From the NCBI RefSeq assembly GCF_041320275.1, contig NZ_CP162023.1:3968001-4032000 (forward strand): a stretch of DNA of 64,000 bases. Reading direction: 5' to 3'. Positions 680-15,268 of this stretch are shown piece by piece; the stretch's first letter is position 1; the number at the start of each line of letters is the position of its first letter. The position numbers and the translations under genes were made by a program. This DNA is from Mumia sp. Pv4-285. Lineage in GTDB: Bacteria > Actinomycetota > Actinomycetes > Propionibacteriales > Nocardioidaceae. The notes below the pieces were generated by a model. That model did not search any database and was not told where the DNA came from. It saw nothing but the letters and a program-made list of their open reading frames with translations.

Positions 680-1513
680 ATGAGCGCCGATCCCGGAGCA
701 GCCCATTCCGTCGTCACGTCCTCCGACGGCACCAGGATCGCCTGCACACGCCGCGGCTCGGGGCCACCGGTCGTCCTCGTCGACGGTGCCCTGGCCTGCT
801 CGCGCACCGACCCCGGACGAGACCTCGCCGTGGCACTCGCGGCGTCGTTCACGGTGTACGACTACGACCGTCGCGGGCGCGGCGAGAGCACCGACACCCC
901 GCCGTACGCCCCGCGCCGCGAGGTCGAGGACCTGGCCGCCGTCGTTGCTGCGGCAGGGCCCGGTGCATGCGTGTTCGGGCAGTCCGCGGGGGCCGCACTG
1001 GCCTTGGAGGCGGCCGCGTCGGGGATGCCGGTGCGCCGACTTGCCACGTACGAACCTCCCTACACCGGAGAGTTCCTGGGGTCCGCGGACATCAGGCGCT
1101 CCCGCAACGGGCTGGAGGCGACCCTCGCCGACGACGACCGCGGGCCGTGCCGGTACGGCGACGCCGTCGCGATGCTGATGACGCTCGCGGGGATGCCCAA
1201 GGAGATGGTCACCCTCGCGCGACGGACGCCGGTGTGGCAGGAGTACGAGGCGCTCGCGCCCACCATCGCGTACGACCTCGCGCTGCTCGGTGACGGCATC
1301 GTGCCGCGACAGCGGTTCGAGGCGATCGACGTGCCGACGCTGGTCCTCGACGGAGCGGCGAGTCCCGAGCTGCTGCGTCGTCCGTCGCGGATCGTGGCGT
1401 GCGTCGTCCGCGCCGCGGAGTATCGCTCGCTCCGCGACCAGACCCACGACGTGGACCCGGCGGTGCTGGCACCGGTGCTCACGGACTGGTTCGCGGGGGG
1501 GCCTGTGACCTAG
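680..1513 (+). CDS. Alpha/beta hydrolase
   Basis: A 277-residue alpha/beta-hydrolase-fold protein. It shows the oxyanion region GSGPPVVLVDGA, the strand FTVYDYDRRGRGES, and a nucleophile elbow FGQSAG with Ser as the likely catalytic residue. A C-terminal acid (VLDGAASPE) and a His in QTHDVD complete a plausible triad. I chose the ATG at 680 because the 11 residues before it, from an ATG at 647, look unlike the family; neither start has a strong ribosome site. Substrate unknown. Its TAG stop shares the tetranucleotide CTAG with the stop of the convergent gene at 1510. Confidence 0.85.
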   Translation: MSADPGAAHSVVTSSDGTRIACTRRGSGPPVVLVDGALACSRTDPGRDLAVALAASFTVYDYDRRGRGESTDTPPYAPRREVEDLAAVVAAAGPGACVFGQSAGAALALEAAASGMPVRRLATYEPPYTGEFLGSADIRRSRNGLEATLADDDRGPCRYGDAVAMLMTLAGMPKEMVTLARRTPVWQEYEALAPTIAYDLALLGDGIVPRQRFEAIDVPTLVLDGAASPELLRRPSRIVACVVRAAEYRSLRDQTHDVDPAVLAPVLTDWFAGGPVT

Positions 1514-3138
1514 GACGACGCGGACGCCACCGCTCCCGCGGCCACCGCCGGCGGCAGCGTACGGCCGAGCATGAGGTCGACGGCCTTCTCGCCGACCATG
1601 ATCGTGGGCGCGTTCGTGTTGCCTCGCGGAACCATCGGCATGACCGACGCGTCGACGACGCGCAGCCCTTCGACCCCGCGCACGCGCAGCTCCGGGTCGA
1701 CCACCGACGCCTCGCCGGACCCCATCGCGCACGTGCCGACCGGGTGGTACAGCGTCTGGGTCTGCGCCCGGATGTGCTCGACGAGCTCGGCGTCGGTGGG
1801 GACGGCACCGCGGGTCCTCGGCATCCACAGGTCGACGAGGAACCGCGCGAGCGGCCCGGACGACACCGTGTCGAGGACCCGGCGTGCGCCGGCCAGCATC
1901 GCGTCCAGGTCGGTCTGGTCGTCGTAGTACGCGGCGTCGATCGCCGGGTGCCACGTCGGATCGGCCGAGCGCAGGCGCAGCGACCCGCGGCTCGCGACGT
2001 TGACCAGGGTGGGCGCCGCGGTGAACATCTGCGCCTTCGCCTCTCGAAGCCCGTTGTCGTAGAACCCCGCCGGCGCCACGTGGACCTGGAGGTCCGGCGC
2101 CGGGAGTCCGTCACGGCTGGTGAAGAATCCGCCGGCCTCACCGATGTTGGAGGCCAGCGGACCCTTGCCGGTCGCCTTCCACCGCATCAGGTTGCCGAGG
2201 TTGCTCGCCTGCGCGAGGTCGGTCGTACCGCGCGTGGTCCAGATCAGCGGCAGCGCAGGGTGGTCGTGGAGGTTCGCGCCGACGCCGGGCAGGTCGGTGA
2301 CCACGTCGATGCCGTGCTCCCGCAGATGGGCGGCGGGACCGATCCCCGACAGCATCAGCAGCTGCGGGCTGTTGACCGCTCCGCCGGACAGCACGACCTC
2401 ACGCTCGGCCCGCGCGACCTGCTCGGCCCCGGCCACGGCGTACGCGACCCCAGCGGCGCGGCCGCCCTCGACGACGACACGGGTCGCCAGCGCCCCGGTG
2501 ACCACGGTGAGGTTGGGGCGGTCGAGCGCGGGCCGGAGGTACGCGTCGGCGACCGACCAGCGCCGACCCTTGCGGCACGTCACCTGGTAGAGCCCCGCAC
2601 CTTCCTGCGCGGCCCCGTTGAAGTCGTCGGTGCGGTCGAAGCCCGAGCCCACCGCCGAGTCGACCCAGGCCTGGCTCAGCTCGTGGGTGAAGACACGGTC
2701 CTCGACCCGCAGCGGGCCGTCGGTGCCGTGGTACGGCCCGGCGAGACGAGTGTTGCCCTCGGCGCGGACGAAGTACGGAAGGACGTCCTCGTAGCCCCAC
2801 CCCGCGGCGCCGTACGCGTCGCGCCAGGTGTCGTAGTCGTAGGCGTTGCCGCGGATGTAGATCATCGCGTTCATCGACGAGCAGCCACCGAGCGCCTTCA
2901 TGCGGGGCCAGTACGCCCGGCGACCGTGCAGCTGCTTCTGCTCCGTGGTCGAGTAGTTCCAGTCCCAGCGGGTCTTGAACAGGCTCGAGAAGGCGGCGGG
3001 GATCGTGATCTCGTCGGCATCGGCCTCTGGCCCTGCCTCCAGGAGGAGGACGGTCACGGACGGGTCCTCGGTGAGCCGCGACGCGACCACCGCTCCGGCG
3101 CTTCCCGCGCCCACCACCACGTAGTCGTAGGACGTCAT
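1510..3138 (-). CDS. GMC family FAD-dependent oxidoreductase
   Basis: A 542-residue glucose-methanol-choline oxidoreductase, similar in architecture to choline and alcohol dehydrogenases. The N-terminus carries the FAD dinucleotide motif YDYVVVGAGSAGAVVASRL. GGCSSMNAMIYIRG is the first GMC signature and SGGAVNSPQLLMLSGIG the second. The C-terminal half holds YHPVGTCAMG, with the usual active-site His, and a second conserved region near NTNAPTIMVGEKA. The ATG at 3138 gives the FAD motif its usual position; upstream in-frame starts only add non-family residues. It diverges from the fatty acid synthase, so the operator at 3229-3276 could also act on it. Substrate unknown. Confidence 0.9.
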   Translation of the reverse strand: MTSYDYVVVGAGSAGAVVASRLTEDPSVTVLLLEAGPEADADEITIPAAFSSLFKTRWDWNYSTTEQKQLHGRRAYWPRMKALGGCSSMNAMIYIRGNAYDYDTWRDAYGAAGWGYEDVLPYFVRAEGNTRLAGPYHGTDGPLRVEDRVFTHELSQAWVDSAVGSGFDRTDDFNGAAQEGAGLYQVTCRKGRRWSVADAYLRPALDRPNLTVVTGALATRVVVEGGRAAGVAYAVAGAEQVARAEREVVLSGGAVNSPQLLMLSGIGPAAHLREHGIDVVTDLPGVGANLHDHPALPLIWTTRGTTDLAQASNLGNLMRWKATGKGPLASNIGEAGGFFTSRDGLPAPDLQVHVAPAGFYDNGLREAKAQMFTAAPTLVNVASRGSLRLRSADPTWHPAIDAAYYDDQTDLDAMLAGARRVLDTVSSGPLARFLVDLWMPRTRGAVPTDAELVEHIRAQTQTLYHPVGTCAMGSGEASVVDPELRVRGVEGLRVVDASVMPMVPRGNTNAPTIMVGEKAVDLMLGRTLPPAVAAGAVASASS

Positions 3139-3146
3139 GCGCGGAA

Positions 3147-3228: not shown

Positions 3229-3276
3229 AAAACATGAGGCATGCCTCACGAAAATGTTGAGGCATCCCTCATGTTT
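3229..3276. promoter_or_regulatory. Paired TGAGG-N4-CCTCA operator in front of FAS-I
   Basis: Two copies of a 14-nt palindrome lie in the divergent region before the fatty acid synthase: TGAGGCATGCCTCA at 3235-3248 and TGAGGCATCCCTCA at 3258-3271. They are 23 bp apart, about two helical turns. The outer flanks AAAACATGAGG (3229-3239) and CCTCATGTTT (3267-3276) form a larger dyad. An almost identical double site occurs before the acyl-CoA carboxylase gene at 15214-15268. A weak -35/-10 pair (TTGAGG at 3257, CATGAT at 3281, spacer 18) overlaps the second copy. Known biology: fatty acid genes of other actinobacteria are under TetR-type regulators such as FasR. That this is such a site is inference. 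Confidence 0.7.
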
Positions 3277-3330
3277 GAGTCATGATGAGTGCGGCCACGA
3301 CCGCGCACCACCAGGAAGCTCGAGGGACTC

Positions 3331-6300
3331 GTGACGATCATCGACACCCCGACCACCCGGACGACGACGCACGACCACCGCACCCGGCTGGTCGATGCAC
3401 TCAACGACGCGACTCCGTACGCGATCGCGTTCGGCGGCCAGGGCAGTCCATGGCTCGAGCCGCTCAGCGACCTGCTTCGGACCTATGCGCTAGGTCCCCA
3501 GCTCCACGCGGTCTGCGCCGCGGCCGAGACACGGCTCGCGCCGGTCCAGGCGGAACTCGCCCGGATCCCGCTGCCGTTCCAGCCGCTCGCCTGGGCGGAC
3601 GCCCTCGCAGTAGCCGAGTCGGCAGCCGCCGACGAGGAGTCGACGGCACCCGACACGGACGTGCTCACGCAGCCCGCCGTGTCGGTGCCCGGCATCCTCC
3701 TCGCCCAGCTCGCCGGCATCGAGGCCGTGCGGCTGCAGGGTCTCGACCTCGCGAACCACGCTCCGACCGCGGTCGTCAGCCACTCGCAGGGCGTCCTGGC
3801 GGCTGAGACGCTCGCCGGCCGCTCGGCCTCGGACGTCCTCGCCGTCGCGCGCCTCGTGGGTGCGGCGATCCAGCTCACCGCTCAGCGCCGTGGCCTGCTC
3901 GGCGACACGATGCTCGCGGTCCGCCGCGTCGACCCGGCCGAGGTCACCGTCCTCCTCGCCGAGGTGGACGGCGTCGACGTGGACGTCGCTCTTCGCAACG
4001 GGCGCCGTACGGTCGTCCTCAGCGGCCCGGCCGAGGACCTCGCCACGGTCCGCCGTCACCTCGAGCGCGAGGCCGAGGCCCAAGCCGCCCGTCGCGAGCG
4101 CAAGGCCACCGGCGGTACGCCGTTCTCCCCGGTGTTCGAGGTGCTCGAGCCGCGCGCCGCGTTCCACCACCACGGGCTCAGCGAAGCCGGCGACCTCGTC
4201 GCGGACTGGGCGGCCGTGTGCGGCCTCGACCCGGAGTGGGCACGCGACGTCGCGACCCGCGCCGTGATCGCGCCCGGAGACTGGGTCCGCGACCTCGAAG
4301 GCGCCCTCGACAGCGGTGCCGAGTGGATCCTCGACCTCGGTCCGGGCAACCTCGCGTCCCTGCTCGCCGAGTACGAGGCCACCGCCCGCGGTGTCGGGCT
4401 CGTCGCCCCGGCCACGCGCCAGGGCCAGCGGATCCTGACCACGCCCGGCGCCGCGCCCCGCCGTGCCGCTGCGTGGTCCTCGTACGCCCCCAAGCCCGTC
4501 ACCCTCCCGGACGGACGCACGGTCCTGGAGACGAGCTTCACCCGCCTCACCGGCCGCTCCCCCATCCTCCTGGCCGGCATGACGCCCACCACGGTCGACG
4601 CTCCCATCGTCGCGGCTGCGGCCAACGCCGGCTTCTGGTCCGAGCTCGCCGGCGGCGGACAGGTCACCGAGGGCATCTTCGCCGACCGGATCGAGGAGCT
4701 CACGGGACTCCTCGAGCCGGGCCGTACGTTCGCGTTCAACGCGCTCTACCTCGACCCGTACCTGTGGAAGATGCAGCTCGGGCAGCAGCGCCTCGTCCAG
4801 CGCGCGCGGGCCAACGGCGCCGCGGTGGACGCGGTCGTGGTCAGCGCCGGCATCCCGGAGCTCCCGGACGCCGTCGCTCTCGTCGAGGAGCTCCGCGACG
4901 CGGGCATCTCGTACGTCGTCTTCAAGCCCGGCACGGTGAAGCAGATCCGCGAGGTGCTCGCGATCGCCCGCGAGGCCGCGCCGATCCCGATCGTCGTGCA
5001 CGTCGAGGGCGGCAAGGCTGGCGGGCACCACTCGTGGGAGGACCTGGACGACCTCCTCCTCACCACGTACGCCCAGCTGCGCGCCCAGGACAACGTCGTC
5101 GTCTGCGTCGGCGGAGGCATCGGGACGCCGGAGGCCGCGTCGGCCTACCTGACCGGCGCCTGGGCCCGCCGCCACGGCTACCCGGCGATGCCGCTCGACG
5201 GCATCCTCGTCGGCACCGCCGCGATGGCGACGCGCGAGGCGACCACCTCGCCGCAGGTCAAGCAGATGCTCGTCGACACCCCCGGGACTCCCGACTGGGT
5301 CGGAGCGGGCCGTGCCGACGCCGGCATGGCGTCGGGCCGCAGCCAGCTCGGCGCGGACATCCACGAGATCGACAACGCCGCCTCGCGCGCCGGACGCATC
5401 CTCGACGAGGTGGCCGGCGACGCCGAGGCCGTCGCGAAGCGCCGCGACGAGATCGTCGCCGCGATCGCACCGACCGCCAAGCCGTACTTCGGCGACGTCG
5501 AGGACATGACGTACGCCGGCTGGCTGGCGCGCTACGCCGACCTCGCCGGTGCCGAGCCGGGCGAGAACGAGATCACCGGCGCCGGAGCCGAGAACTGGCT
5601 CGACGTGACGCTGCGCGACCGCTTCCACGCGATGCTCCAGCGCGCCGAGGCCCGCCTCGCAGCCGAGGACCACGGCGAGATCACGACGCTGTACCCCGAT
5701 GCCGACGCCGCCGACGACCCGTACGCCGCGATCGGGGCCCTCCTGGCCGCGTACCCGCACGCCACCGAGGTGACCCTCCACCCGGCCGACGTCGCATACT
5801 TCGTCGAGGTCTGCCGCCGTCCCGGCAAGCCCGTGCCGTTCGTGCCGGTGCTCGACGGCGACGTACGCCGCTGGTACCGCTCCGACTCCCTCTGGCAGGC
5901 CCACGACGCCCGCTACCCCGCCGACGCCGTCTGCATCATCCCGGGGCCTGTCGCCGTCGGCGGCATCACCCGCGTCGACGAGCCGGTCGCGGACCTCCTG
6001 CGCCGCTTCGAGGACGAGACCGTGGACGACGTCCTCACCGCGGGCGCCCTCGCCTCGCGCGTCGCCGGCCGCCGCCGGGTCGACGCCGCCGACGACCTCC
6101 TCGGTCTCGTGCTCGCCGCACCCGACGTGAGCTGGGCGGGCCGCACGGTCCGCAACCCCGTCCACCGCCTCGGCGTGGACTGGGTCATCGTCGACCCGAG
6201 CCGCGCCGAGCACGCCGAGACCGGCGCCGTCCTGTTCACCGACGGCGACGACGCCGTGCTCGAGGTGCCGCTCGGCGGCAGCCGGTCGCTGTCGGTCCGG

Positions 6301-9300
6301 ATCGAGATCGCGGACGCTGCATCGGGCGGCGCACCGATCGTGACCGCCGAGAGCGCCGTCACGGCGATGCGCAGCCTCGTCGGTGTCGCGGCCGGCGGCA
6401 ACCTTCCGCAGGCCGCCGACGGAATCGCCCGTACGACCGCGACCTGGTCCGGCGACCTCGGTGCCGACCACTCCGCCGTCACGGGCGGTCCCGCCGCCCG
6501 CGGCAGCCGCCCGGCGCCCGACGCGCTCGTCGGTCTGGCCTGGTCGTCGGTGTTCGCCGTCCTCGCCGACACCCACGTCCCCGGGAGCGACCTCTCCGTC
6601 GTCGAGGGCATGCTCGACCTGGTCCACCTCGACCACGCGATCCAGCTCGTCGGCGAGCTGCCGACCGCGAAGACCGCGCTCGCCGTCGAGGCACGCCTCG
6701 CCGGCGTCGAGGATGCCGGAGTCGGCCGTGTCGTCACCATCGACGTCACCATCACGACGGAGTCCGGCGACGCCGTCGCGACGCTGCGCGAGCGGTTCGC
6801 GATCCGCGGCCGCAACGGTGCCGCCGACCTCACCGACCCCGCCGTCGCCGGCGGCGCGGCACGCGGGCCGGTGACCGACACCTCGCGCCGTACCCGCGCC
6901 TCGGTGTCCGTCGTCGCCCCGACCGACCTGTCCGCGTTCGCCGCGGTCACCGGCGACCACAACCCGATCCACACCAGCGTCGCCGCAGCACGCCTCGCCG
7001 GCCTCGGCGACCCGATCGTGCACGGCATGTGGCTCTCGGCCGCGGCTCAGCAGATGCTCGTCGGTCGCCACATCGACGGCTGGACCACCCGGTTCCTCGC
7101 ACCCGTGCGGCCAGGAGCGACCGTCGACCTTGCCGCCGTCCGGACCGGCCTCGACGCCGGTGCCGAGATCGTCGAGGTCACCGGTCGCAGCGAGGGCGAG
7201 CTCGTGCTCGCCGCCACCGCCCGCATCGCACCCCCGCGCACCGCGTACGCGTTCCCGGGACAGGGCATCCAGCACGCCGGGATGGGCATGGCGGGCTACC
7301 GCCGCAGCAAGGCCGCGCGCGAGATCTGGGACCGGGCCGACGCCCACACCCGCGAAGCGCTCGGCTTCTCCATCCTGACCGTCGTGCAGGAGAACCCGAC
7401 GGTCATCGTCGCCGACGGCGTCACGCACAAGCACCCGGACGGCGTCCTGTTCCTCACGCAGTTCACGCAGGTCGCGATGGCCGTCCTCGGGTCGGCGCAG
7501 ATCGCCGAGCTCCGCGAGGCCGGCGCGTTCGTCGACGACGCGGTGCTGGCAGGCCACTCGGTCGGCGAGTACAACGCACTCTCGGCCGTCTCCGGCGTGA
7601 TCAGCCTGGAGGCCGTGATCGAGGTCGTGTTCCAGCGCGGCTCGGTCATGCACACGCTCGTGCCCCGCGACGCCGAGGGCCGCAGCGACTACCGGCTCGC
7701 GGCGATCCGCCCGAGCCAGATCGGCCTCGACGACGCTGAGGTCACGCCGTTCGTCGACCGGATCGCGCAGGAGTCCGGCGAGTTCCTCGAGATCGTGAAC
7801 TACAACCTGCGCGGCTCGCAGTACGCGATCGCCGGCTCCGTCAAGGGCCTGGAGATCCTCGAGGCCGAGATCGCGCGCCGACGGGCCGAGTTCGGCGGCA
7901 AGGCCGCCTTCATCCTGGTCCCCGGCATCGACGTGCCGTTCCACTCCAGCGTCCTCCGCGGCGGCGTGCCGGACTTCCGGGCCCGTCTCGAGGAGCTGCT
8001 GCCCGAGACGATCGATCCCTCGATCCTGCTCGGACGCTACGTCCCGAACCTCGTCCCGTGGCCGTTCACCCTCGACCGTGCGTTCGTCGCGGAGATCGCC
8101 TCGACGGTGCCGTCCGCACCGCTCGAAGAGGTCCTCGCCGACTACGACGCCTGGGCGGCGACGCCCGGCCGTCTCGCGCGCCGACTGCTCGTCGAGCTGC
8201 TCGCGTGGCAGTTCGCGAGCCCGGTCCGCTGGATCGAGACCCAGGACCTGATGTTCGGCGACCTGGGCGTTGAGCGCTTCGTGGAGATCGGTGTCGCCAA
8301 CGCACCGACCGTCGCGAACCTCGCGTCGTCGACCCTCAAGCTGCCGACCGCCCCCGAGCGGACCATCGAGGTCCTCAACATCGAGCGCGAGTCCGGCTCG
8401 GTGTTCGCGACCGACACCGACCCGGAGCCGGCAGCGACGGAGGAGCCCGCTCCCGCACAGACCGCCGGTGCAGCGGCGGCACCCTCCGCCGCCGCCGCAC
8501 CGGCACCCAGCGCCGCACCCAGCGCCGACCGCCCCGCCGACCTCACGTTCGACGCGGCGGACGCGACCACGGTGCTGCTCGCGTGGTGGACCAAGATGCG
8601 CCTCGACCAGATCGGCACGGCCGACTCGATCGAGTCGCTGTGCGACGGCGCGTCGTCGCGGCGCAACCAGCTGCTCGTCGATCTCGGCGGCGAGCTGTCG
8701 CTCGGCGCGATCGACGGCGCCGCCGACGCCGACATCCCGACGCTCTCCGGACAGGTCAAGGGCCTCGCCCGCTCGTACAAGCCGTTCGGCCCCGTGCTCT
8801 CGAGCGCGCTCGGCGACCACCTCACGAAGGTGCTCGGCCCGACGGGCAAGCGGCAGGCGGCGATCGCAGACCGCGTCACCGGCGTCTGGCAGCTCGGCCC
8901 CGGCTGGGCGAGCCACGTCACCGCCGAGCTGGCGCTGGCGACGCGTGATGGCAGCAGCGTGCGTGGTGGCAGCTTCGGCGACCTGGACGCTCCGTCCAGC
9001 GCCGCCGACTTCGACGCCGCCGTCGACGCCGGTGTCCAGTCGGTGGCCGCACGCCGCGGCATCGCCGTGGCGCTCCCCAGCGCGGGCGGAGCCGACGTCA
9101 CCGTCGACGCCGCGGCCCTGGGCGAGATCACCGCCGGCATCACCGGCCCCGACGGGGTGCTCGCCTCCACGGCGCGCCACCTCCTCAAGACGCTGGGCCT
9201 CGCCGAGACCTCGGCCGTCTCGACCACCGACACCGCAGACGCCGCGGCCCTCGCCCAGGTCGAGGCGGAGCTCGGGACCGACTGGGGGCGCCTCACCGCG

Positions 9301-12300
9301 CCCGCGTTCGACGCACGCCGTGCACTGCTGCTCGACGACCGGTGGGCCAGCGCCCGCGAGGACGTCGCCCGCATCGCCGCCGGCGGCACCGTGGCGGCCA
9401 CGCCGGAGTCGTTCACCGGCACCGGCGAGGACGTCGCGGCACAGGCCCGCTGGTGGGCCGCGCGCACGGAGGACGCTGCACTCGCCGACCGCCTCACCGC
9501 GATCGCCGACGCGGCGACCGACACCGCCGCGGGCGCCTGGACCGACGAGGTCGCCGTCGTCACCGGTGCGAGCGCCGGCTCGATCGCGTCCGCCGTCGTC
9601 GGGCGCCTGCTGTCGGGTGGCGCGACGGTCGTCGCGACCACCTCGCGGCTCGACCAGCCCAAGCTGCGGGCGTACAAGGAGCTCTACCGCACCCACGCCC
9701 GCGCCGGTGCGCGCCTGTGGGTCCTGCCCGCCAACCTCGCGTCGTTCGCCGACGTCGACGCGCTCGCGTCGTGGGTGACCGAGGAGCAGACCAGCACCGC
9801 AGGCGGCACCACCACGGTGACCAAGCCGGCGCTGACGCCGACCCTCCTGTTCCCGTTCGCGGCCGGCCGGGTCGCGGGCGACATGACCGAGGTCGGTGCC
9901 CGCTCCGAGGTCGACATGCGGATCCTGGTGTGGTCGGTGGAGCGCCTCGTCGCGACCCTCGGCACCACCGGACGCGCACACGACCTCGCCTCCACGCTGC
10001 ACGTCGTCCTGCCGGGCTCCCCCAACCGCGGCATGTTCGGCGGCGACGGGGCGTACGGCGAGGCCAAGGCCTCGCTCGACGCGATGGTCGCGCGGTGGTC
10101 TGCCGAGGCGACCTGGAGCGAGCGCGTCACGCTCGTGCACGCGATCATCGGCTGGGTCCGCGGGACCGGGCTGATGGGCGGCAACGACCCGCTGGTCGAA
10201 GCCGTCGAGCGCGTCGGTGTCCGCACGTGGTCCACCGACGAGATGGCAGAGGAGCTCCTCGGGCTGGCGTCGGTCGAAGCTCGGGCTGAGGCACGAACGG
10301 CTCCCCTCACTGCTGACCTGACCGGCGGGCTCGGCGAGACCGACCTCGATCTCGCCGCGCTGGCCCGTGAGGCTTCGGAGGGTCTCGATCGCTCCGCGCC
10401 TCGCCCAGCGGGTGAGGAAGCGGCGATCGCCGCTCTCGCGCCGTCGCCGGCCCAGCTGCCCAAGCGGCCGAAGGTCTCGTGGCCCAGCACCACCGCCCGC
10501 CCCGAGGACCTCGTGGTCATCGTCGGTGCCGGTGAGCTCGGTCCGTTCGGCTCGGCACGCACCCGCTTCGAGTACGAGGTATCCGAGGAGCTCTCGGCCG
10601 CGGGCGTGCTCGAGCTCGCCTGGTCGACCGGGCTGATCGCCTGGGACGACAACGGCGGCTGGTACGACGTCGAGGCCGGCGACGCGGTCTCCGAGGCCGA
10701 GATCCACGAGCGCTACCACGACGTGGTCGTCGAGCGGTGCGGCATCCGGCGCTACGCCGACGACGGCGCGCTGGTCGACACCTCGACGCCGCTGCTCGCC
10801 CGTGCCTACCTCGACGACGACATCACGTTCTCCGTCGGCTCCGAGGCTGCGGCCAGGGCGATGTACGACGCCGACCCCGACCGTACGGTCATCGCACCGG
10901 GCGGCGACGGCGACTGGACCGTGACCCGCAAGGCCGGCACCGAGATCCGCGTCCCGCGGCGCCTCGCGCTGACCCGTACGATCGGCGGCCAGATCCCGAC
11001 CGGCTTCGACCCCGCGGTGTGGGGCGTGCCCGCCGAGATGCTCGAGTCGCTCGACCGTGTCGCGGTCTGGAACCTCGTCTGCACCGTGGACGCGTTCCTC
11101 TCCAGCGGCTTCAGCCCGGCGGAGCTCATGCGCTGGGTCCACCCGGCCGCGGTCGCCAGCACGCAGGGCACCGGCATGGGCGGCATGACGTCGATGCGCT
11201 CGCTCTACATCGACACGCTCCTCGGCGAGGCGAAGCAGAACGACATCCTCCAGGAGGCGCTGCCGAACGTCATCGCGGCGCACGTCATGCAGTCGTACGT
11301 CGGTGGCTACGGCGCGATGATCCACCCGGTCGCCGCCTGCGCGACGAGCGCGGTGTCGGTCGAGGAGGGTGCGGACAAGATCCGCCTCGGCAAGGCCGAC
11401 TTCGTGGTCGCCGGCGGGTTCGACGACCTGTCGACGGAGGGCATCGTGGGCTTCGCCGACATGTCCGCGACGGCCGACTCGGGCACGATGCTCGCCAAGG
11501 GCATCGACCCGCGCTTCGTCAGCCGCGCCAACGACCGTCGCCGTGGCGGCTTCGTCGAGAGCCAGGGAGGCGGCACGATCCTCCTCGCACGCGGCGACGT
11601 CGCGCTCCGGATGGGCCTCCCCGTCCTGGGTGTGGTCGCGTACGCCGGGTCCTTCGCCGACGGCGTCCACACGTCGATCCCCGCTCCGGGACTCGGCGCT
11701 CTGGCAGCGGCTCGCGGCGGCGCCCAGTCGCCGCTGGCCCGCGGGCTCGCCGCTCTCGGCCTCGGCGCGGACGACGTCGCGGTGGTGTCGAAGCACGACA
11801 CCTCGACCGCGGCGAACGACCCCAACGAGTCCGAGCTGCACGAGCGGATCGCGGCGTCGCTGGGCCGATCGGACGGCAACCCGCTGTTCGTGGTCTCGCA
11901 GAAGACGCTCACGGGGCACTCGAAGGGCGGGGCGGCCGCGTTCCAGATGATCGGGCTCTGCCAGGTCCTCGGGGCGCAGGTGCTGCCGCCCAACCGCAGC
12001 CTCGACTGCGTCGACGACGTCCTCGACGAGAACCCGCACCTGGTGTGGCTGCGCGAGGCGCTCGAGGCTCCCGCCCCGATGCGCGCCGGGCTGGTCACGA
12101 GCCTCGGGTTCGGCCACGTCGCCGCGCTCGTCGCGATCGCCCACCCGGAGGCGTTCCTGGCGACGCTCGACGCGACGCAGCGCGAGGAGTACGAGCGGGC
12201 GGCACGCGCCCGTGAGGTCTCGGGCCGGCTGCGCCTCGTCCGGGCGATGTACGGCGGTCCTGCGCCGTACCAGCGCCCGGTCGGACGCCGCCTCGGTGAC

Positions 12301-12378
12301 TCCGGCGTCCGCGAGCGGGAGGCGTCGATCCTCCTCGACCCGCAGGCGCGGCTGGGCAAGGACGGCATCTACTCGTGA
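3331..12378 (+). CDS. fas: Type I fatty acid synthase (multidomain FAS-I)
   Basis: A 3015-residue FAS-I that makes long-chain acyl-CoA from acetyl- and malonyl-CoA in the cytosol, close to the length of mycobacterial FAS-I. Domain order is the actinobacterial one. Acetyltransferase: SHSQG, Ser152. FMN enoyl reductase: about 400-730, LLAGMTPTT and HVEGGKAGGHHSW. Hot-dog dehydratase: GDHNPIH near 1208-1214. Malonyl/palmitoyl transferase: GHSVG, Ser1410. An Ala/Pro linker then leads to the ACP, with the phosphopantetheine Ser probably 1775 in DGASSRRNQ. Ketoreductase: VVTGASAGS near 2076, Tyr2242 and Lys2246. Ketosynthase: Cys2670, His2822, His2863. The GTG at 3331 follows [10 protein letters not shown]-like repeat lies in the linker near residue 2351. 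The stop overlaps acpS. Confidence 0.97.
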   Translation: MTIIDTPTTRTTTHDHRTRLVDALNDATPYAIAFGGQGSPWLEPLSDLLRTYALGPQLHAVCAAAETRLAPVQAELARIPLPFQPLAWADALAVAESAAADEESTAPDTDVLTQPAVSVPGILLAQLAGIEAVRLQGLDLANHAPTAVVSHSQGVLAAETLAGRSASDVLAVARLVGAAIQLTAQRRGLLGDTMLAVRRVDPAEVTVLLAEVDGVDVDVALRNGRRTVVLSGPAEDLATVRRHLEREAEAQAARRERKATGGTPFSPVFEVLEPRAAFHHHGLSEAGDLVADWAAVCGLDPEWARDVATRAVIAPGDWVRDLEGALDSGAEWILDLGPGNLASLLAEYEATARGVGLVAPATRQGQRILTTPGAAPRRAAAWSSYAPKPVTLPDGRTVLETSFTRLTGRSPILLAGMTPTTVDAPIVAAAANAGFWSELAGGGQVTEGIFADRIEELTGLLEPGRTFAFNALYLDPYLWKMQLGQQRLVQRARANGAAVDAVVVSAGIPELPDAVALVEELRDAGISYVVFKPGTVKQIREVLAIAREAAPIPIVVHVEGGKAGGHHSWEDLDDLLLTTYAQLRAQDNVVVCVGGGIGTPEAASAYLTGAWARRHGYPAMPLDGILVGTAAMATREATTSPQVKQMLVDTPGTPDWVGAGRADAGMASGRSQLGADIHEIDNAASRAGRILDEVAGDAEAVAKRRDEIVAAIAPTAKPYFGDVEDMTYAGWLARYADLAGAEPGENEITGAGAENWLDVTLRDRFHAMLQRAEARLAAEDHGEITTLYPDADAADDPYAAIGALLAAYPHATEVTLHPADVAYFVEVCRRPGKPVPFVPVLDGDVRRWYRSDSLWQAHDARYPADAVCIIPGPVAVGGITRVDEPVADLLRRFEDETVDDVLTAGALASRVAGRRRVDAADDLLGLVLAAPDVSWAGRTVRNPVHRLGVDWVIVDPSRAEHAETGAVLFTDGDDAVLEVPLGGSRSLSVRIEIADAASGGAPIVTAESAVTAMRSLVGVAAGGNLPQAADGIARTTATWSGDLGADHSAVTGGPAARGSRPAPDALVGLAWSSVFAVLADTHVPGSDLSVVEGMLDLVHLDHAIQLVGELPTAKTALAVEARLAGVEDAGVGRVVTIDVTITTESGDAVATLRERFAIRGRNGAADLTDPAVAGGAARGPVTDTSRRTRASVSVVAPTDLSAFAAVTGDHNPIHTSVAAARLAGLGDPIVHGMWLSAAAQQMLVGRHIDGWTTRFLAPVRPGATVDLAAVRTGLDAGAEIVEVTGRSEGELVLAATARIAPPRTAYAFPGQGIQHAGMGMAGYRRSKAAREIWDRADAHTREALGFSILTVVQENPTVIVADGVTHKHPDGVLFLTQFTQVAMAVLGSAQIAELREAGAFVDDAVLAGHSVGEYNALSAVSGVISLEAVIEVVFQRGSVMHTLVPRDAEGRSDYRLAAIRPSQIGLDDAEVTPFVDRIAQESGEFLEIVNYNLRGSQYAIAGSVKGLEILEAEIARRRAEFGGKAAFILVPGIDVPFHSSVLRGGVPDFRARLEELLPETIDPSILLGRYVPNLVPWPFTLDRAFVAEIASTVPSAPLEEVLADYDAWAATPGRLARRLLVELLAWQFASPVRWIETQDLMFGDLGVERFVEIGVANAPTVANLASSTLKLPTAPERTIEVLNIERESGSVFATDTDPEPAATEEPAPAQTAGAAAAPSAAAAPAPSAAPSADRPADLTFDAADATTVLLAWWTKMRLDQIGTADSIESLCDGASSRRNQLLVDLGGELSLGAIDGAADADIPTLSGQVKGLARSYKPFGPVLSSALGDHLTKVLGPTGKRQAAIADRVTGVWQLGPGWASHVTAELALATRDGSSVRGGSFGDLDAPSSAADFDAAVDAGVQSVAARRGIAVALPSAGGADVTVDAAALGEITAGITGPDGVLASTARHLLKTLGLAETSAVSTTDTADAAALAQVEAELGTDWGRLTAPAFDARRALLLDDRWASAREDVARIAAGGTVAATPESFTGTGEDVAAQARWWAARTEDAALADRLTAIADAATDTAAGAWTDEVAVVTGASAGSIASAVVGRLLSGGATVVATTSRLDQPKLRAYKELYRTHARAGARLWVLPANLASFADVDALASWVTEEQTSTAGGTTTVTKPALTPTLLFPFAAGRVAGDMTEVGARSEVDMRILVWSVERLVATLGTTGRAHDLASTLHVVLPGSPNRGMFGGDGAYGEAKASLDAMVARWSAEATWSERVTLVHAIIGWVRGTGLMGGNDPLVEAVERVGVRTWSTDEMAEELLGLASVEARAEARTAPLTADLTGGLGETDLDLAALAREASEGLDRSAPRPAGEEAAIAALAPSPAQLPKRPKVSWPSTTARPEDLVVIVGAGELGPFGSARTRFEYEVSEELSAAGVLELAWSTGLIAWDDNGGWYDVEAGDAVSEAEIHERYHDVVVERCGIRRYADDGALVDTSTPLLARAYLDDDITFSVGSEAAARAMYDADPDRTVIAPGGDGDWTVTRKAGTEIRVPRRLALTRTIGGQIPTGFDPAVWGVPAEMLESLDRVAVWNLVCTVDAFLSSGFSPAELMRWVHPAAVASTQGTGMGGMTSMRSLYIDTLLGEAKQNDILQEALPNVIAAHVMQSYVGGYGAMIHPVAACATSAVSVEEGADKIRLGKADFVVAGGFDDLSTEGIVGFADMSATADSGTMLAKGIDPRFVSRANDRRRGGFVESQGGGTILLARGDVALRMGLPVLGVVAYAGSFADGVHTSIPAPGLGALAAARGGAQSPLARGLAALGLGADDVAVVSKHDTSTAANDPNESELHERIAASLGRSDGNPLFVVSQKTLTGHSKGGAAAFQMIGLCQVLGAQVLPPNRSLDCVDDVLDENPHLVWLREALEAPAPMRAGLVTSLGFGHVAALVAIAHPEAFLATLDATQREEYERAARAREVSGRLRLVRAMYGGPAPYQRPVGRRLGDSGVREREASILLDPQARLGKDGIYS
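10381..10412. repeat. REP-like 32-bp repeat inside the FAS-I coding sequence
   Basis: These 32 bases match the intergenic copy at 28271-28302 with only two differences. Here the repeat is translated in frame (SEGLDRSAPRPAG) in the linker between ketoreductase and ketosynthase domains. Its arms (GGTC...GACC-like, CGA/TCG) form an imperfect hairpin. It resembles short palindromic repeats scattered through many actinobacterial genomes. Confidence 0.6.
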
Positions 12379-12767
12379 GCGTGATCGGCGTGGGCGTGGA
12401 CCTGGTCCACGTCCCGTCGTTCGCTGAACAGCTGGCTCAGCCGGGCACCCGGTTCGAGGAGATGTTCACCCCCGGCGAGCGAGGTGACGCAGCGGACGGT
12501 CCTGCCGACCGTACGCGTCACCTCGCCGCCCGGTGGGCGGCCAAGGAGGCCGTCGTGAAGGCCTGGTCGGCGTCCCTGCACGGCTCGCCACCGGTGGTCG
12601 AGGAGTCGAAGGCCCTGGCGGCGATCGAGGTCGTCAAGGACCTCTGGGGCCGTCCGCGGATCGCGCTGCACTCGCCGGTGTCGACGCACCTCGACGCGGG
12701 GCGGCTGCACGTCTCGCTGTCGCACGACGGCGACTACGCGATCGCGTACGTCGTCCTCACCGCCTGA
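12375..12767 (+). CDS. acpS: Holo-[acyl-carrier-protein] synthase
   Basis: A 130-residue AcpS-type phosphopantetheinyl transferase. It moves 4'-phosphopantetheine from CoA to the ACP Ser of the neighbouring synthase. IGVGVDLVHV holds the Mg-binding Asp and RWAAKEAVVKAW is the second signature with the metal-binding Glu. The GTG start overlaps the fas stop as GTGA, so the two are translationally coupled, matching the fas-acpS pairing known in actinobacteria where FAS-I lacks its own transferase domain. Confidence 0.96.
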   Translation: MSVIGVGVDLVHVPSFAEQLAQPGTRFEEMFTPGERGDAADGPADRTRHLAARWAAKEAVVKAWSASLHGSPPVVEESKALAAIEVVKDLWGRPRIALHSPVSTHLDAGRLHVSLSHDGDYAIAYVVLTA

Positions 12768-12780
12768 GCGCGATCGCGCG

Positions 12781-13404
12781 TCAGCCGGCCTGCTCGGCCG
12801 CCAGCAGGTAGGAGCCGAGGAGTCGCTTGAGCTCGATCACGGCCTCGGCGTGCTCCTGGCCGTCGCGGATCGAGAAGTTGAGCATCGAGTACGCGACGTG
12901 GACGAGGACCTCGGCGACGATCTTGCGGCGACCCCGCGGCGTACGGGGCGTCAGGGGCGCGAGAACGCCCGCCACGTCGACCGCCAGCTCGCGCTCGGTG
13001 ACGGCGGCCGTCGCACGCGTCGCCGGGGTGGACTGGACCGCGTGCCACACGGCACGGCGCGACGGGTCTGTCACCCAGAGGGCGGCGATGTGGTCCACGA
13101 GCTGGTCGAGGAGCCGCAGCCAGTCGAGCGTCGGCAGCGCGGCGGCCAGTCTCGCGAGCTCGGCGCGGACGGCCACGACGTCCTGGCGGTCGAGCTCGCA
13201 GACGACGACGTACTTGTTCTGGAAGAACTGGTAGATGGTGCCGATCGGGATGCCTGCGCGGCTGGCGACCTCCTCGAGCGTGAACGACTCGAAGCCCACG
13301 TCGAGCAGCAGGTCACGGGACGTCTGCAGGATCAGGTCGAACTTCTTCTGGCTCCGCTCCTGCGTCGGGCGGCGCCGAGGTTCGAGGATCTCCACGGTCG
13401 TCAC
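12781..13404 (-). CDS. TetR family transcriptional regulator
   Basis: A 207-residue TetR repressor. The N-terminal helix-turn-helix reads FTLEEVASRAGIPIGTIYQFFQNKY; the rest is a helical ligand domain of unknown specificity. GTG at 13404 is chosen because a TAGGGT box ends six bases upstream, as expected for a leaderless mRNA; an alternative GTG at 13395 would place GAGGT as a ribosome site. It converges on fas-acpS and lies between the two gene sets that share the TGAGG-N4-CCTCA operator, so it is a candidate fatty acid regulator. Its own promoter dyad (13409-13431) is a different sequence, which argues for caution. Confidence 0.9.
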   Translation of the reverse strand: MTTVEILEPRRRPTQERSQKKFDLILQTSRDLLLDVGFESFTLEEVASRAGIPIGTIYQFFQNKYVVVCELDRQDVVAVRAELARLAAALPTLDWLRLLDQLVDHIAALWVTDPSRRAVWHAVQSTPATRATAAVTERELAVDVAGVLAPLTPRTPRGRRKIVAEVLVHVAYSMLNFSIRDGQEHAEAVIELKRLLGSYLLAAEQAG

Positions 13405-13408
13405 ACCT

Positions 13409-13431
13409 CAACCCTACCGATGCGTAGGTTG
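13409..13431. promoter_or_regulatory. Dyad over the TetR gene promoter (probable autoregulatory operator)
   Basis: CAACC(C)TAC-cgatgc-GTAGGTTG is an inverted repeat with one extra base in the left arm. It covers the predicted -10 box TAGGGT (13411-13416, minus strand) of the TetR gene, whose GTG follows six bases later. TetR repressors commonly bind such dyads to control themselves; binding here is inferred. Confidence 0.5.
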
Positions 13432-13483
13432 TGTTCGCTGGCACATTCGTCCGGTTGACACCGCGAGTTGCGGGCCGTGGACC

Positions 13484-13518
13484 GGCGCGGCACGGCTCGT
13501 GGAGAGCCGTGCCGCGCC
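13484..13518 (-). terminator. Hairpin terminator after the subtilase gene
   Basis: A perfect 15-bp inverted repeat (GGCGCGGCACGGCTC and its complement) with a 5-nt loop lies 14 bases after the subtilase stop. There is no T-tract, as is usual for actinobacterial hairpin terminators. It also separates that gene from the TetR gene. Confidence 0.7.
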
Positions 13519-13532
13519 GTCCTCGAATGGGA

Positions 13533-15050
13533 TCAGCGACCCTGGGTGGCGTCCAGGGCGTCGACGAGACCGTCGCCGAAGAAGCCGTTGTACGCGGCGT
13601 CGCCGGTGCAACGGACGTCGCTCGGGCACGGCTTGTCGTCGGCCTGCGCGCGCACCATCGCGACGAGCTCGGCCGGCGACGCGTCAGGGTGCGACGACGC
13701 GAGGAGCGCCAGCACGCCCGCGACATGCGGCGAGGCCATGGACGTGCCGGACTTGAGCCCGTAGCCGCCGTTGAGGACGGTCGACAGGATCCGGCTCCCC
13801 GGTGCTGCCACGTCGATCACGCCGTCGCCGTAGTTGGAGAAGCTCGACTTGGCTCCCGCCTGGTCGGTCGAGGCGACCGTCACGACACCCGGGAGCTCGG
13901 CCGGGATGTCCTCGCAGCCCGCGTCGATCGGACGCGTCACCGGAGTGGTGTCGTTCGGGCTGGTCGCGTCCGTCGTCTTGTTGGCGAGGTCGTAGTTCGA
14001 GTTGCCGGCTGCGGCAGCGCTCACGACGCCCTTGCGCTCGGAGTACGAGACGGCCCGGCGGACGGCTTCCTTGGCCGCGGCCTGGTCCGGGTCGTTGCTG
14101 CACCAGAACATCCACGGATCGACGTAGTAGCTGTTGTTCGTCACGTCGACGCCGTGCTGGGCGGCCCACACGAACCCGCAGATCGCGTACTCGGGGTAGA
14201 TGAACCCGTCGTCGTCGACGACCTTGATCGAGCTCATCCGGACGTTCGGAGCGACTCCGACGATGCCGACGCCGTTCTTGGCCGCGGCGATCGTCCCGGC
14301 CACGTGCGTCCCGTGGTCGCTGGTCGTCGGGATCCAGGCGGCGCGGCTGGTGTCCGGCACCCCGTACGAGGTGCAGCCGACCGAGTTCTGCGCGTCCAGG
14401 TTGGGCGCGAGGTCGGGGTGCGTGTCGTCGATGCCGCTGTCGAGCACGCCGACGGTGACGTCGCGGCTGCCGTCGCTGGCGACGTCTGCCTTGATCTGGG
14501 TCATGTCCCACTGCTGCGACTCGAGCGGGTCGGGGGCGACCTCGGTCGCCGAGACGCCCTGCCGGATCTCGAAGGCCGAGCGGCTCTCGGCGTCGCGCGC
14601 CAGCGAGCGTCGCTGCGGCGCGGCGGCGGCCTCCGGTGTCTTGACGGCTGCCGTGCGCGTCGCGCCGACGGACTGGACGGCGCCGCCCTTCGCGACCTCC
14701 GCGACGTCCTGACGGAACGAGCCGGACGTGGAGTGCGCGACGACCACGCCGATCTCGGGCCAGGACTGGACGACCGTGCCGCCGGCGTCGCGCACCGCAC
14801 GCTCGGCGAGGCGGGTCTGGCCGGGGTTCGCCTTGGTGTTGACGACGTAGCTCATGAGGACGCCGTCGGCGACCGGGGTCGCGGCTGCCACGGCGGGGGC
14901 CGTGGGAGCGGGCGCAGCGGAGGCGGCGGGTGCGACCGCGCCCGTCGTGAGCGCTGCGGCGACGAGCCCGATGCCGCTCAGCACTGTCGCTGCGAGGGGC
15001 CGCCGAGATCGGCGCCGGGGGCCTGGGGGGAATGCTGCCGAACTGACCAT
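13533..15050 (-). CDS. Secreted S8 family serine protease (subtilase)
   Basis: A 505-residue subtilisin-like protease. A signal peptide with basic residues PRRRSRRPL and a hydrophobic core ends near AASA-AP. A propeptide region follows (about 45-150). The triad is Asp in VLDSGIDDTHPDL near 203, His in DHGTHVAGT near 247 and Ser in SGTSMASPHVAG near 435. ATG at 15050 places the signal peptide correctly and has GGAGG about ten bases upstream. The protein ends after the catalytic domain with no wall anchor, so it is probably released outside the cell. It is divergent from the carboxylase gene, and the intervening operator could also affect it. Confidence 0.92.
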   Translation of the reverse strand: MVSSAAFPPGPRRRSRRPLAATVLSGIGLVAAALTTGAVAPAASAAPAPTAPAVAAATPVADGVLMSYVVNTKANPGQTRLAERAVRDAGGTVVQSWPEIGVVVAHSTSGSFRQDVAEVAKGGAVQSVGATRTAAVKTPEAAAAPQRRSLARDAESRSAFEIRQGVSATEVAPDPLESQQWDMTQIKADVASDGSRDVTVGVLDSGIDDTHPDLAPNLDAQNSVGCTSYGVPDTSRAAWIPTTSDHGTHVAGTIAAAKNGVGIVGVAPNVRMSSIKVVDDDGFIYPEYAICGFVWAAQHGVDVTNNSYYVDPWMFWCSNDPDQAAAKEAVRRAVSYSERKGVVSAAAAGNSNYDLANKTTDATSPNDTTPVTRPIDAGCEDIPAELPGVVTVASTDQAGAKSSFSNYGDGVIDVAAPGSRILSTVLNGGYGLKSGTSMASPHVAGVLALLASSHPDASPAELVAMVRAQADDKPCPSDVRCTGDAAYNGFFGDGLVDALDATQGR

Positions 15051-15208
15051 GGGGTGTTGACCTCCACTGCTGTCGGCCCGCGGCAGACCGCGCTGCGCCT
15101 GTGAGCGAGAGCGGGCGTCCGGGGGAACTGATTGTGTTCGGCAACCGTAGACCGCACACCGCCGATGCGCTGGTCGCGGCTGAGACCCAGAACACGTCCC
15201 GCCCCGGC

Positions 15209-15268
15209 TTGACAAAACATGAGGCACCCCTCATCTTTGAAGGAGTCCTGAGGCTTCCCTCATGTTTT
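15209..15268 (+). promoter_or_regulatory. Promoter and paired TGAGG-N4-CCTCA operator of the carboxylase gene
   Basis: TTGACA at 15209-15214 is a consensus -35 box. Directly behind it TGAGGCACCCCTCA (15220-15233) fills the spacer, and TGAGGCTTCCCTCA lies at 15249-15262, just before the ribosome site AGGAG (15269-15273). The flanks AAAACATGAGG and CCTCATGTTTT are inverted copies of each other and match the FAS-I operator at 3229-3276. Spacing here is 29 bp against 23 bp there. The -10 box is weak (about 15232-15237). A protein on the first copy would block RNA polymerase. Confidence 0.7.

Follow-up and report, generated by a model that had tools for sequence, protein, structure and literature searches.

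The four TGAGG-N4-CCTCA palindromes of the window (the whole 64,000-nucleotide stretch analysed in this study) very probably form paired operators of the fasO type, bound by a FasR of the Corynebacterium kind, a putative TetR repressor encoded at 12781-13404 on the reverse strand beside fas-acpS. As judged from sequence comparison, the regulon is likely to be of a known kind, that of FasR and fasO in Corynebacterium, with its variation lying in the doubled, symmetric operators and in one added likely target, a malic enzyme. The features concerned are listed below by position in the window.

1510-3141, reverse strand: GMC (choline-dehydrogenase-like) oxidoreductase gene, divergent to fas, possible regulon member (Pfam; relatives)
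3235-3248: fas operator, distal copy (TGAGGCATGCCTCA); exact match, matrix score 27.0 bits
3257-3262, forward strand: putative -35 box TTGAGG of fas, formed by the left half-site of the operator (comparison of fas promoters)
3258-3271: fas operator, proximal copy (TGAGGCATCCCTCA); exact match, 34.4 bits, 23 bp from the distal copy
3281-3286, forward strand: putative -10 box CATGAT of fas
3331-12378, forward strand: fas, type I fatty acid synthase (Pfam); probable GTG start at 3331 judged from relatives, longest open reading frame from 3289
12375-12767, forward strand: acpS, 4'-phosphopantetheinyl transferase (Pfam ACPS)
12781-13404, reverse strand: tetR, proposed to encode the cognate regulator (orthologue of Corynebacterium-type FasR, TetR_C_22; sequence comparison and gene context)
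13533-15047, reverse strand: subtilase-type protease, probably outside the regulon, start codon uncertain (Pfam; gene order in G057)
15209-15214, forward strand: TTGACA, likely -35 box of accD (sequence; relatives)
15220-15233: acc operator, first copy (TGAGGCACCCCTCA), inside the putative promoter spacer; exact match, 35.8 bits
15232-15237, forward strand: putative -10 box CATCTT of accD, 17 bp from TTGACA
15249-15262: acc operator, second copy (TGAGGCTTCCCTCA), just 5' of an AGGAG ribosome site; exact match, 23.7 bits
15280-16785, forward strand: accD, acyl-CoA carboxylase carboxyltransferase subunit (Pfam Carboxyl_trans)

Operator palindromes in the window and the genome

The initial annotation had reported four exact palindromes at these positions, common outer flanks on both pairs (AAAACATGAGG...CCTCATGTTT) and a third palindrome placed directly behind TTGACA, all of which hold. 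With up to one mismatch allowed, the window has six matches, compared with 1.62 ± 1.12 in shuffled versions, and none of 100 shuffles reaches six. The 4.65 Mb genome contains eight exact single sites and three matches to the reversed pattern; a scan with up to three mismatches gives 12 and five, respectively. The exact paired pattern occurs twice in the genome, both times in the window, and the reversed pairing does not occur. Scored with a weight matrix that was built from the exact pairs of a different genus (g20, loci L011-L040) and left the window out, the four window sites reach 23.7-35.8 bits, whereas no other position in the 64 kb exceeds -1.6. The consensus is aaAcaTGAGGaattCCTCAtgTtt, in which the core is perfect because exact cores were selected.

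The initial annotation had named frequent matches outside promoters, or lack of conservation at fas orthologues, as evidence that would count against its regulon; instead, five of the eight exact genomic sites precede fas, accD or the malic enzyme gene, while three (L003, L005, and L010) look like chance occurrences, with matrix scores of -6.7 to -8.8. These three probably accidental sites are what could be said for regarding the window palindromes too as a product of chance in an AT-richer promoter stretch, but the probability of this is negligible. Exact pairs are present in 36 of the 245 sampled genomes of the family and reversed-pattern pairs in none, and four simulations that matched the genome in length and the window in dinucleotide make-up yielded one to five single sites each but no pairs. 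Because the pairs are unique genome-wide, never reversed in the 245 genomes and never simulated, a chance origin can be taken as already refuted; the four palindromes are real and not accidental.

Genome-wide scans revealed no further strong site beyond those at fas, accD, and the malic enzyme gene. Two weaker candidates, a one-sided operator-like site of 15.4 bits that covers the ATG of a 495-aa open reading frame without a Pfam match (L212, G000:C1:2405675-2405694) and a site of 9.4 bits before an M14 carboxypeptidase gene (L216), are not claimed as operators because the reversed pattern also matches in that range.

Conservation of the operator pairs and their promoters

Six genomes of the window's own genus were examined, and each has a pair at fas and another at accD; in G057 both pairs contain one site with a single mismatch. 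Among the 30 g20 loci (L011-L040), a pair lies at fas in 11 and at accD in 19. The start-to-start spacing at fas is 23 bp in each of the 11 exact g20 pairs, while the acc pairs are spaced by 27-29 bp in g20 and 29-30 bp in the own genus. Relatedness of the genomes means that such matches do not count as independent observations.

Two further kinds of palindrome were seen near the operators. Of the 19 g20 accD loci, 17 have a second palindrome, CTAAGCAAGCGCTTA(G), beyond the acc operator, and its appearance suggests a binding site for a different TetR regulator (L011, L014-L019, L021-L023, L025, L026, L029, L034, and L037-L039). In two loci from large genomes of family f5, genus g58 (L051 and L052), two extra TGAGG...TCATGTTT palindromes lie upstream of the conserved fas operator.

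Comparison of fas promoters suggests that the proximal operator contributes a -35 box, since its left half-site gives TTGAGG or ATGAGG and an xAxxxT box follows 17-18 bp on. At accD, TTGACA precedes the first operator in six of six own-genus genomes (window included), and in 16 of 19 g20 acc promoters TATAGT lies 17-18 bp after the half-site of the first operator.

Since both pairs are in divergent regions, the initial annotation had allowed that the secreted protease and the GMC oxidoreductase could also belong to the regulon. The protease is probably not a member, because in G057 accD and tetR are adjacent and divergent, the 255 bp that separate them contain no protease gene, and the operator pair is kept. 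The GMC oxidoreductase is a possible member: it is divergent to fas in six of six own-genus genomes, at a variable distance from the operators, and no GMC match was found in the 1.5 kb upstream of fas in any of eight g20 loci.

The candidate regulator

The initial annotation had proposed a dedicated regulon linking malonyl-CoA supply with FAS-I, probably under a TetR regulator to be sought among purified candidates. The conserved pairs and a co-occurring TetR gene support such a regulon, and no hunt for the regulator is needed, since the window itself encodes a strong candidate. An orthologue of this TetR protein is present in 34 of the 36 pair-bearing genomes of the family, and the remaining two genomes are drafts that are 71% and 82% complete. 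Over the whole family sample the orthologue is found in 64 of 245 genomes, 30 of which have no exact pair; among the minority of these that were read, three (G019, G048, and G073) have one-mismatch sites at fas. The association of TetR gene and pair has a Fisher probability of 1.4e-21, which ignores relatedness and is descriptive only.

The window protein is 49-54% identical to ten Corynebacterium TetR proteins (E 2.5e-64 or lower). Its probable equivalence to C. glutamicum FasR is judged from gene neighbours and the motif. S20N is a derepressing mutation in C. glutamicum, according to the available text of PMC7316851; Ser18 of the window protein, which may be the corresponding residue, is invariant in 18 aligned sequences.

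In an AlphaFold model with a mean pLDDT of 89.5, the best fold match is DesT with palmitoyl-CoA, and M. tuberculosis FasR and FadR with acyl-CoA are within the first 50 matches. The DesT structures (PDB 3lsj, 3lsp) contain palmitoyl-CoA or, in complex with DNA, oleoyl-CoA; DesT is 18-20% identical to the window protein and has other target genes. The match is in keeping with acyl-CoA sensing but is not proof of it, as such similarity is common to many TetR proteins.

Comparison of named fas loci

Upstream of fas, the form TGA-N6-CCTCA or TGAGG-N6-TCA occurs in 18 of 20 Corynebacterium loci, the other two having it with one mismatch, and in six of six loci from Rhodococcus, Rhodococcoides, Nocardia, and Williamsia. 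This amounts to 24 of 26 non-mycobacterial loci, versus none of 51 Mycobacterium-type loci. Among loci with at least 1.3 kb past fas, a TetR orthologue lies behind fas in 11 of 15 from Corynebacterium and five of six from the Rhodococcus, Rhodococcoides, Nocardia, and Williamsia group, compared with none of 46 Mycobacterium-type loci, in which about 3 kb was covered. In five of the 21 non-mycobacterial loci no TetR gene was found in the 2.8-3.1 kb downstream of fas. The two contrasts have Fisher probabilities of 5.9e-18 and 1.8e-11, which again ignore relatedness and serve as description only. Three loci of unspecified actinobacteria (L118, L121, and L140; operator in none) were left out of the taxon counts.

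These counts bear on whether the neighbouring TetR protein might be a bystander, conserved for other reasons, with some third regulator binding the sites. Co-occurrence of TetR gene and operator could follow simply from FAS-I, which is present in the same genomes. Mycobacteria, however, keep FAS-I and have neither the operator upstream of fas nor the TetR gene close behind it, and elsewhere the operator is found at tetR itself: immediately before tetR in L279 and, as a pair in which one site has one mismatch, in the divergent gap between tetR and accD in L281. A bystander role is decidedly unlikely on this evidence. In another locus with divergent accD and tetR (L280, G227) no site with up to one mismatch was found in the stretch examined, and in the genome of the window tetR itself lacks an operator.

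The first protein considered as the regulator was another one, the orthologue of Rv3208, which is the FasR of M. tuberculosis. Its gene lies at a different place in the genome, L041:1851-2489 on the reverse strand, beside DUF3107; the product matches 6o6p with E 1.2e-53, has an HTH stretch (VSKPVLYQHF) identical to that of the M. tuberculosis protein, and matches the NCBIfam FasR model with E 4.5e-72, although below its cut-off (242 of 330 bits). This protein was set aside because its published site differs, being a 25-mer that, as given in the available text of PMC7382501, does not contain TGAGG-N4-CCTCA. The distribution of the sites agrees with this: of the 51 Mycobacterium-type loci, 45 have CGTAGAACT, a core of the M. 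tuberculosis site, in front of fas, whereas the 26 others all lack it there, a taxon pattern opposite to that of TGA-N6-CCTCA. Neither strand of the window contains CGTAGAACT. It is thus very unlikely that the Rv3208-type protein binds the window sites.

The window TetR matches 6o6p at residues 8-67 only, the HTH part (E 0.0033), and so is not the orthologue of Rv3208. The two proteins have a TetR fold in common, the control of fas-acpS of FAS-I that Rv3208 exerts is also proposed for the window protein, and with the Corynebacterium regulator they share a name; Rv3208 differs in that it recognises another DNA site and is an activator. By these sequence comparisons, the two TetR regulators called FasR are not orthologues, and in the 77 named loci their motifs are mutually exclusive in front of fas.

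Relationship to FasR and fasO of Corynebacterium

The FasR/fasO system of C. glutamicum was reportedly described by Nickel et al. in 2010. The initial annotation had not recognised TGAGG-N4-CCTCA as a described operator; the motif is in fact the fasO-type operator known from Corynebacterium FasR, here doubled and more symmetric. It is not new, because Corynebacterium has TGAC-N5-CCTCA upstream of fas and over accD1-like start codons. A literature search with the letters of the motif gave nothing of use among the matches listed.

The accD1 product of C. glutamicum starts with MTISSPL. In 14 of 30 accD-type Corynebacterium loci, from 14 of 17 genomes, the motif starts at the in-frame ATG of an accD-type gene, mostly one that encodes MTISSP; the three genomes without it there (G694, G735, and G752) each have an accD copy outside the set compared. 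The gene order in C. alimapuense is fas-acpS-tetR-peroxiredoxin, and that in C. glutamicum is presumably fasA-acpS-fasR-bcp.

A TetR orthologue is present in only 77 of 151 sampled Corynebacterium genomes. In nine of 30 Corynebacterium tetR loci (L175-L182 and L188), a fasO-like site starts at the ATG of a 156-158 aa open reading frame upstream of tetR. This frame looks like the peroxiredoxin gene, and the position of the site suggests autoregulation of a two-gene unit.

According to the available text of PMC6460773, C. glutamicum FasR represses accBC, accD1, fasA, and fasB, and its site at accD1 (fasO) overlaps the accD1 open reading frame. The C. glutamicum genes are numbered Cgl2490 (fasR) and Cgl2495 (fas-IA) in the text available from PMC8637627, so they are close neighbours. 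The window resembles the C. glutamicum system in having a TetR regulator, operators at both fas and the carboxyltransferase gene, and the regulator gene near fas. The sampled Corynebacterium loci share the CCTCA half-site and A/T flanks, and the site over an accD1-like start matches the published overlap. A difference is the number of sites: here both promoters contain a pair of complete palindromes, with a spacing of 23 bp at fas and 27-30 bp at acc, whereas a single site, with the left half mostly eroded, is present in 18 of the 20 sampled fas promoters of Corynebacterium. Streptomyces coelicolor FasR resembles the present regulator in name and pathway only, as it acts on fasII genes and is described as orthologous to MabR rather than to a TetR protein (available text of PMC5541348).

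Malic enzyme as a probable further target

Outside the window, an exact operator precedes the gene for an ACT-domain malic enzyme (C1:589506-590900), which was beyond the reach of the initial annotation, confined as it was to the window. A survey of 24 hand-picked genomes found the ACT-type enzyme in 16 and only a paralogue in the other eight. The site is exact in six of six own-genus genomes and begins 39-55 bp upstream of where the protein match starts. Of ten ACT-type enzymes outside the genus, four have a site of 14.7-32.6 bits and six do not; in these six of the 16 (L253, L255, L257, and L260-L262) the site is absent or broken. The best score among ten paralogue loci, used as a control, is 7.3 bits. 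The malic enzyme is thus a likely extra member of the regulon, and it could supply the NADPH consumed by FAS-I. In C. glutamicum, by contrast, the malic enzyme gene is repressed by MalR (available text of PMC8637627); no statement that FasR controls malic enzyme was found in the available text of PMC8637627 and PMC4064979, which name MalR or are silent.

Proposed mechanism

Two dimers of the regulator would bind each operator pair, covering the promoters of fas-acpS and accD. Because protein on sites that overlap the promoter boxes would block RNA polymerase, initiation would be prevented at both promoters and the genes repressed. Long-chain acyl-CoA, the end product of FAS-I, would be expected to act with the repressor, as it is given as the effector of C. 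glutamicum FasR in the available text of PMC7851686 and PMC7316851. The single operator before the malic enzyme gene would place reducing power under the same switch.

The protein might instead activate transcription from these sites, the role that FasR has at fas in mycobacteria, and the distal fas operator, upstream of the putative -35 box, has a position frequent for activators. The other fas site and the two acc sites, however, overlap the putative promoter or start region, an arrangement suited to repression, and C. glutamicum FasR is a repressor in the available text of PMC6460773 and PMC7316851. Activation is accordingly unlikely, and repression is the preferred sense of the switch.

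Significance

An unnamed motif has become a testable regulon with a candidate protein. The Corynebacterium-type FasR would be extended to a second family of FAS-I bacteria, with malic enzyme added as a metabolic target. On balance, we lean towards a wider reading in which FasR of the own genus would be one switch for all inputs of FAS-I, namely malonyl-CoA through accD, fas-acpS itself, and reducing power through the ACT-domain malic enzyme, acting at paired operators of which one half-site also serves fas as its -35 box. On this reading, mycobacteria would have lost this ancestral switch and replaced it with the unrelated Rv3208-type FasR. That the two regulators named FasR do not appear to be orthologues matters both for annotation and for the engineering of malonyl-CoA supply.
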